Of a stretch of DNA of 33,082 bases, positions 31,804 to 33,082 are shown piece by piece. The DNA lies in the NCBI GenBank assembly GCA_003557725.1, contig PWNQ01000200.1, positions 1 through 33,082 of the forward strand, read 5' to 3'. The position numbers were made by a program, and so were the translations under genes. This DNA is from Bacteroidales bacterium (GTDB lineage Bacteria; Bacteroidota; Bacteroidia; Bacteroidales; PWNQ01). Each line of letters opens with the position of its first letter. Positions within the stretch are counted from its first letter, which is position 1. The notes beneath the pieces are model-generated. The model saw only the letters and a list, made by a program, of their open reading frames with translations, had not been told where the DNA came from and ran no database searches.

Positions 31804-32316
31804 ATGCTATCAGAAAAAATGCAAGAAGCGCTAAATGACCAAATTAACAAGGAGCTATGGTCTTCATATCTTTATTTATCCATGTCGGCTTACTTTGAGG
31901 ACAGGGGTCTTCCGGGTTTTGCCAACTGGATGAAGGTTCAGGCACAGGAGGAAGTTTCCCACGCCATGAAGTTTTTTAACTACATAAACGACCGGGGTGG
32001 CAGGGTGATCCTTAAGCCCATCGTGGAGGTTCCCTCTGAGTGGACTGACACCAAAGCCGTAGTAGAAGAAACCCTCAACCATGAGAAGTTGGTATCCTCT
32101 TATATAAACAACCTGGTTGATCAGGCCATCAAGGAAAAGGATCATGCCACCAATAATATGCTTCAGTGGTTTGTGGAAGAGCAGGTTGAAGAAGAGGCCA
32201 GTGTTAGTGAGCTGTTGGACAAGGTAGAAATGACAGAAGGGAAGCCACATGTCATACTGAATATTGACAAAGAACTGGGACAGCGGGTTTTTGTTGATGA
32301 GACCAAAGAAGGCTAA
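31804..32316 (+). CDS. ftnA: Ferritin (FtnA-type, 24-mer class)
   Basis: QINKELWSSYLYLSMSAYFEDRGLPGFANWMKVQAQEEVSHAMKFFNYINDRGG...NMLQWFVEEQVEEEA; ferroxidase-type Glu/His ligands present. Confidence 0.96.
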   Translation: MLSEKMQEALNDQINKELWSSYLYLSMSAYFEDRGLPGFANWMKVQAQEEVSHAMKFFNYINDRGGRVILKPIVEVPSEWTDTKAVVEETLNHEKLVSSYINNLVDQAIKEKDHATNNMLQWFVEEQVEEEASVSELLDKVEMTEGKPHVILNIDKELGQRVFVDETKEG

Positions 32317-32348: not shown

Positions 32349-32383
32349 AAAAAAAGGCAGGGACAAAATCCCTGCCTTTTTTT
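32349..32383. terminator. Bidirectional intrinsic terminator between convergent ferritin and encapsulin genes
   Basis: 15-bp perfect stem AAAAAAAGGCAGGGA-CAAAA-TCCCTGCCTTTTTTT, with an A-tract on one side and a T-tract on the other. Confidence 0.95.
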
Positions 32384-32407: not shown

Positions 32408-33082
32408 TTACTTAAACACCATCACCGCTGCCGGGTCCAACACCTGGAAGGCAAATGATTCGGTAAGGTACAGTTGCACCTTTTTATTGGTATGGCTTTC
32501 ATATCCAATGGAGAAATCTTGTCCCAGTGTTAATCGAAAACACCCTTCATCATCGGCTACCATCATACCTCCTTCAATACCATGTGCCAGGATAATATCT
32601 CCTTTGATGGTAGCTTCCACCTGTTTTCTCAACGGGTATCCTTTCATGTGGCTGTTGATCTTCTGAAACAACTCCGGGCCAACTACAAAATGAAAGGGTG
32701 CGTGAACACCTTTTTGCTCAAAGCGGATAATGGCCAGTGAAAGCACCTCCACCAGGTTGTCCATTTCTTCGGGAAAATTAACGGCACTATGCTCGCTGGC
32801 ATGGAGCAGCCCCTGGATATTGGCTTGTTTGAACCCGTGGTAAATGGCATTTTCTTCAAAGCGGGCCATTTTTAGTGCCGCTTCCTGCAGGTTATCCAGG
32901 TCTATATCCTCATTGCCCCGGGCCACATTATCCAGTTCCCAGATATCCAACTCAAAAGAAATACGAGCTTCCACCAACGGAAGGAGCTTGTGAATGCCAT
33001 ACTGAACGTCCTTTTTCCCTTGACGGGCCGGCAGGTCAAGCTCCCCCAAAGGAACTGCTGCAAAGTCCATCCCTTTAGGCCC
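32408..33082 (-). CDS. Family 1 encapsulin nanocompartment shell protein (HK97 fold, linocin-M18-like); N-terminus truncated by the window edge
   Basis: Reads GPKGMDFAAVPLGELDL...IHKLLPLVEARISFELDIWELDNVARGNEDIDLDNLQEAALKMARFEENAIYHGF...ATIKGDIILAHGIEGGMMVADDEGCFRLTLGQDFSIGYESHTNKKVQLYLTESFAFQVLDPAAVMVFK. Matches the remembered T. maritima encapsulin blocks ([51 protein letters not shown]). The frame stays open past 33070, so the ATG there is internal. Confidence 0.94.
   Translation of the reverse strand, partial: GPKGMDFAAVPLGELDLPARQGKKDVQYGIHKLLPLVEARISFELDIWELDNVARGNEDIDLDNLQEAALKMARFEENAIYHGFKQANIQGLLHASEHSAVNFPEEMDNLVEVLSLAIIRFEQKGVHAPFHFVVGPELFQKINSHMKGYPLRKQVEATIKGDIILAHGIEGGMMVADDEGCFRLTLGQDFSIGYESHTNKKVQLYLTESFAFQVLDPAAVMVFK

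Follow-up and report, generated by a model that had tools for sequence, protein, structure and literature searches.

The window analyzed here, a 33,082-nucleotide stretch of a Bacteroidales genome, ends on its right side within a gene that we assign to an encapsulin shell. The 3′ part of this gene lies on the minus strand at positions 32408–33082, comprises codons 41–264 and the stop codon, and stays open to the window edge; its translation is 224 amino acids long. Converging on it from the plus strand is a gene for a classical FtnA-type non-heme ferritin (31804–32316), which lacks an encapsulin-loading peptide and is the sole PF00210 protein of the genome. Between the two genes, a hairpin with a preceding A-run and a following T-run occupies positions 32349–32382. 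It is absent from the output of the terminator pattern scan but strong on folding (−25 kcal/mol, z −6.2), and it is likely a bidirectional rho-independent terminator common to the shell and ferritin genes. The last 121 bases of the window (32962–33082) overlap exactly with the right end of C187, a second contig from this assembly, which carries the start of the shell gene and an EncFtn gene.

The first-pass annotation had taken the reading frame at the window edge for a family 1 encapsulin and suggested a Linocin_M18 profile search, together with a scan of the neighboring genes for a loading peptide. The fragment matched Pfam Linocin_M18 (PF04454) at 1.1e-62 with 212 bits (cutoff 24.3) and scored 213.2 bits against NF041155, the NCBIfam model of family 1 encapsulins (cutoff 100). 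The Thermotoga maritima encapsulin (PDB 3dkt) matched over the full fragment length with an E-value of 2e-45. These matches bear out the early reading, and, judged from its sequence, the reading frame 32408–33082 is a family 1 (classical) encapsulin shell gene. AlphaFold modeled the truncated shell with low confidence (pLDDT 66.9), and this model was not relied on by itself; its top Foldseek matches were all encapsulins, the best at an E-value of 2.3e-18. The sequence match to a solved encapsulin, together with the Foldseek matches of this low-confidence model, indicates the HK97 fold of a family 1 encapsulin. A pattern-based search for relatives of the fragment returned proteins of 40–67% identity from Bacteroidales, Lentisphaeria, and Thermotogaceae. 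No second shell gene was found when the genome was searched, leaving this one as the sole copy.

The alignment with 3dkt begins at residue 41 of that protein, and therefore about 40 N-terminal residues are absent from the window fragment. The ATG at 33070 is internal to the shell gene and is not the true start. Searching the window's own genome, we found the fragment's 40 N-terminal residues encoded a second time at C187:48641–48760, with 100% identity. The right end of C187 is the reverse complement of the right end of the window over exactly 121 bases. Shell codons 1–40 are on C187 (L003:10522–10641), and the true start is at L003:10522, outside the window. Joined across the overlap, the gene encodes a complete shell of 264 amino acids, which is the standard length; the halves lie on separate contigs, and the join is a 121-base overlap, not an assembled read path.

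Directly upstream of the shell start, at L003:10174–10509 on C187 (plus strand, outside the window), lies a gene for an EncFtn cargo of 111 amino acids, 12 bases separating its stop from the shell start codon. The cargo is thus located just upstream of base 33082, where the first-pass annotation had expected it. The sequence gaggcaaac directly precedes the shell ATG. The EncFtn protein ends in a typical encapsulin loading peptide with the sequence STDLGIGKIKK, so that the suggested scan of the neighborhood for such a peptide also gave a positive result. A dedicated cargo gene with a C-terminal loading peptide therefore adjoins the shell gene, as is looked for in a family 1 locus. The protein scored 149.6 bits against TIGR04535 (“encapsulin-associated ferritin-like protein”, cutoff 125) and 140.8 bits against PF22277 (EncFtn-like, cutoff 27). 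It matched R. rubrum EncFtn (5da5) at 4.7e-29, and the solved EncFtn structures of Nitrosomonas and Haliangium were matched as well. The expectation that the cargo could be new was not borne out; by these profile and structure matches, it is instead a canonical EncFtn, and its loading peptide is canonical as well. A search of the genome found no second EncFtn-family protein.

In the alignment with R. rubrum EncFtn, the equivalents of E31, E32, E34, W38, Y39, H57, E61, E62, E64, and H65 are all conserved in the cargo. The equivalents of the ferroxidase residues E32, Y39, E62, and H65, along with those of E31/E34 and H57/E61/E64, are present in 20 of 20 alignment rows. According to the published accounts of the R. 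rubrum protein, E32, E62, and H65 bind the two irons (PMC5012862; PMC11202242). The linker ahead of the loading peptide is variable among the EncFtn relatives in the alignment, acidic-rich, and in several cases histidine-rich. The window organism has a His- and Asp-rich linker of this kind at L003:10438–10480, with equivalents in L006 (for example, GAHGHDHDHDDDHG), L008, L036, and L046. Such a linker might act as a metal binder.

Of the 198 genomes that were sampled from the order, 13 have a shell gene, counting the window genome, and the shell type is therefore uncommon but not rare in the order. The statement in the first-pass annotation that encapsulins are uncommon holds for the order to this extent, but does not amount to rarity there. 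An EncFtn gene is directly upstream of the shell gene in all 12 of the other shell-bearing genomes. The same arrangement was found in seven of the eight loci of a second collection, one of which comes from a genome already counted among the 12; in the eighth locus, the available sequence reaches only a few hundred bases upstream of the shell gene, too little to show an EncFtn gene. Most EncFtn relatives in the 12 genomes and the second collection end in DLGIGKIK or SLGIGKIK.

A variant arrangement was observed in two Bacteroidales, at L042:4862–6588 (minus strand) and L011:3886–5675 (plus strand), where genes for an Fe/Mn superoxide dismutase, EncFtn, and the shell are consecutive; the next gene resembles, by eye, a short-chain dehydrogenase. 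The EncFtn proteins of these loci are 95–96 amino acids long, end immediately behind the helical domain, and have no C-terminal loading peptide; 15–20 bases separate the EncFtn stop from the shell start. Searches of each of the two genomes returned no second EncFtn. The tagless protein may be loaded into the shell by a different route, or it may be an EncFtn that stays free. A tagless EncFtn is already known from Nitrosomonas, as NE0167 is described (PMC11202242), and in the portions of the literature covered by our search we found no description of a tagless EncFtn beside a shell gene and a dismutase gene.

The shell and EncFtn genes are read as a pair across two contigs, and their pairing depends on the C187–C71 join. 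The same 121-base stretch ends both contigs, which suggests that the assembler halted at a branch point there; the join could then be an assembly coincidence, and the shell gene of the window would pair with another, unseen cargo. We consider this highly improbable, since the protein of the 121-base stretch was found at just two places in the genome, the overlap between C187 and the window is exact, and the joined shell protein is of standard length. Moreover, the divergent RNase R gene that precedes the operon on the C187 side recurs in two genus-mates, whose shell homologues have the same upstream EncFtn and then the same RNase R gene. The neighborhood also bears on whether the reading frame 32408–33082 instead encodes a prophage major capsid protein. 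Weak matches to Major_capside (19.2 bits, cutoff 26.8) and PHROG 264 (21.7 bits) were obtained, as is to be expected of an HK97 fold common to encapsulins and phage capsids, but the encapsulin models score about 10 times higher in bits. The shell matched nothing among 50,697 phage records in a tblastn search. Its neighbors are ATP synthase genes, the ferritin, RNase R, and MsrA, with no phage genes seen among those examined, and directly ahead of it lies the gene of a cargo that bears a loading peptide. The prophage capsid was rejected on the encapsulin profile scores, the phage search, and this neighborhood, and we give it practically no credence.

The convergent ferritin raises the question of a second cargo, unlinked or noncanonical, that is also loaded; with the ferritin in this role, the result would be one shell nested inside another. 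In other systems, bacterioferritins have been put forward as cargos, according to the survey in PMC8346489, and the neighbor in question is the genome's only classical ferritin. On the other hand, its C-terminus, ELGQRVFVDETKEG, contains no loading motif, and in both genus-mates the ferritin gene adjoins atpG among the ATP synthase genes, apart from the encapsulin operon, which lies elsewhere and is followed by a photolyase gene. The ferritin was therefore rejected as a cargo or operon partner. Since the genus-mates hold the two blocks apart, their adjacency in the window genome is best read as a rearrangement that joined them, and not as a sign of a joint system. A genome-wide search for other tagged proteins pointed in the same direction. 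The pattern [LF]GIG occurred 74 times, compared with 97 in the reversed control, and is thus not enriched. We read 44 Leu-Gly-Ile-Gly sites, 10 of which are within 14 codons of a stop; only the EncFtn tail ends a recognized gene with a plausible peptide. Other tagged cargos were rejected on this basis, in a screen that is confined to the pattern and that divergent or N-terminal loading signals would escape. We regard a second loaded cargo as very unlikely, and there is a similarly slim chance that a further cargo without a recognizable loading peptide accompanies EncFtn, or that the classical ferritin and the shell constitute a two-tier iron store.

We propose, with high confidence, that the shell and EncFtn genes are a two-gene iron-storage operon encoding a standard encapsulated-ferritin compartment. 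The cargo and shell genes would be co-transcribed, and an HK97-fold shell would assemble around EncFtn decamers. By analogy with T. maritima, the shell probably consists of 60 copies with T=1 and a diameter of about 24 nm. The C-terminal DLGIGKIK peptide would tether the decamers to the inner wall of the shell. Fe2+ could then pass in via the shell pores and be oxidized at the EncFtn di-iron site, which would form between subunits, and the resulting Fe3+ would mineralize within the shell. Storage of iron in this form may provide the window organism with iron buffering and lessen oxidative damage. This scheme resembles published descriptions, according to which EncFtn oxidizes Fe2+ but cannot by itself store it, the shell surrounds both EncFtn and the mineral, and the loading peptide fastens EncFtn to the inside of the shell (PMC5012862, PMC8346489, PMC11202242).

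Among characterized systems, the T. maritima encapsulin with its EncFtn-type cargo (PDB 3dkt, 7kq5) is similar in having a family 1 shell of about 264 amino acids (36–37% identity) and a separate ferritin-like cargo, although it comes from another phylum than the window organism. The EncFtn-encapsulin systems of R. rubrum and Haliangium ochraceum (PDB 5da5, 7oe2; PMC5012862, PMC8791618) share the ferroxidase residues, the C-terminal loading peptide, and the family 1 shell, and differ only in sequence divergence and in the acidic, histidine-rich linker before the loading peptide. The survey by Andreas and Giessen ranks ferritin-like proteins second in size among the sets of family 1 cargos and places the Flp type in 23 phyla of bacteria (PMC8346489). 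The Bacteroidales relatives (L004/L040, L035, L005, and others) have the same two-gene order and a DLGIGKIK-type tail, but their downstream neighbors vary, and in L011 and L042 the loading peptide is absent and a gene for superoxide dismutase lies immediately upstream. What a window edge hides can be recovered from another contig of the assembly, here a cargo of the standard type, and members of the Bacteroidales are added to the documented EncFtn-encapsulin systems.
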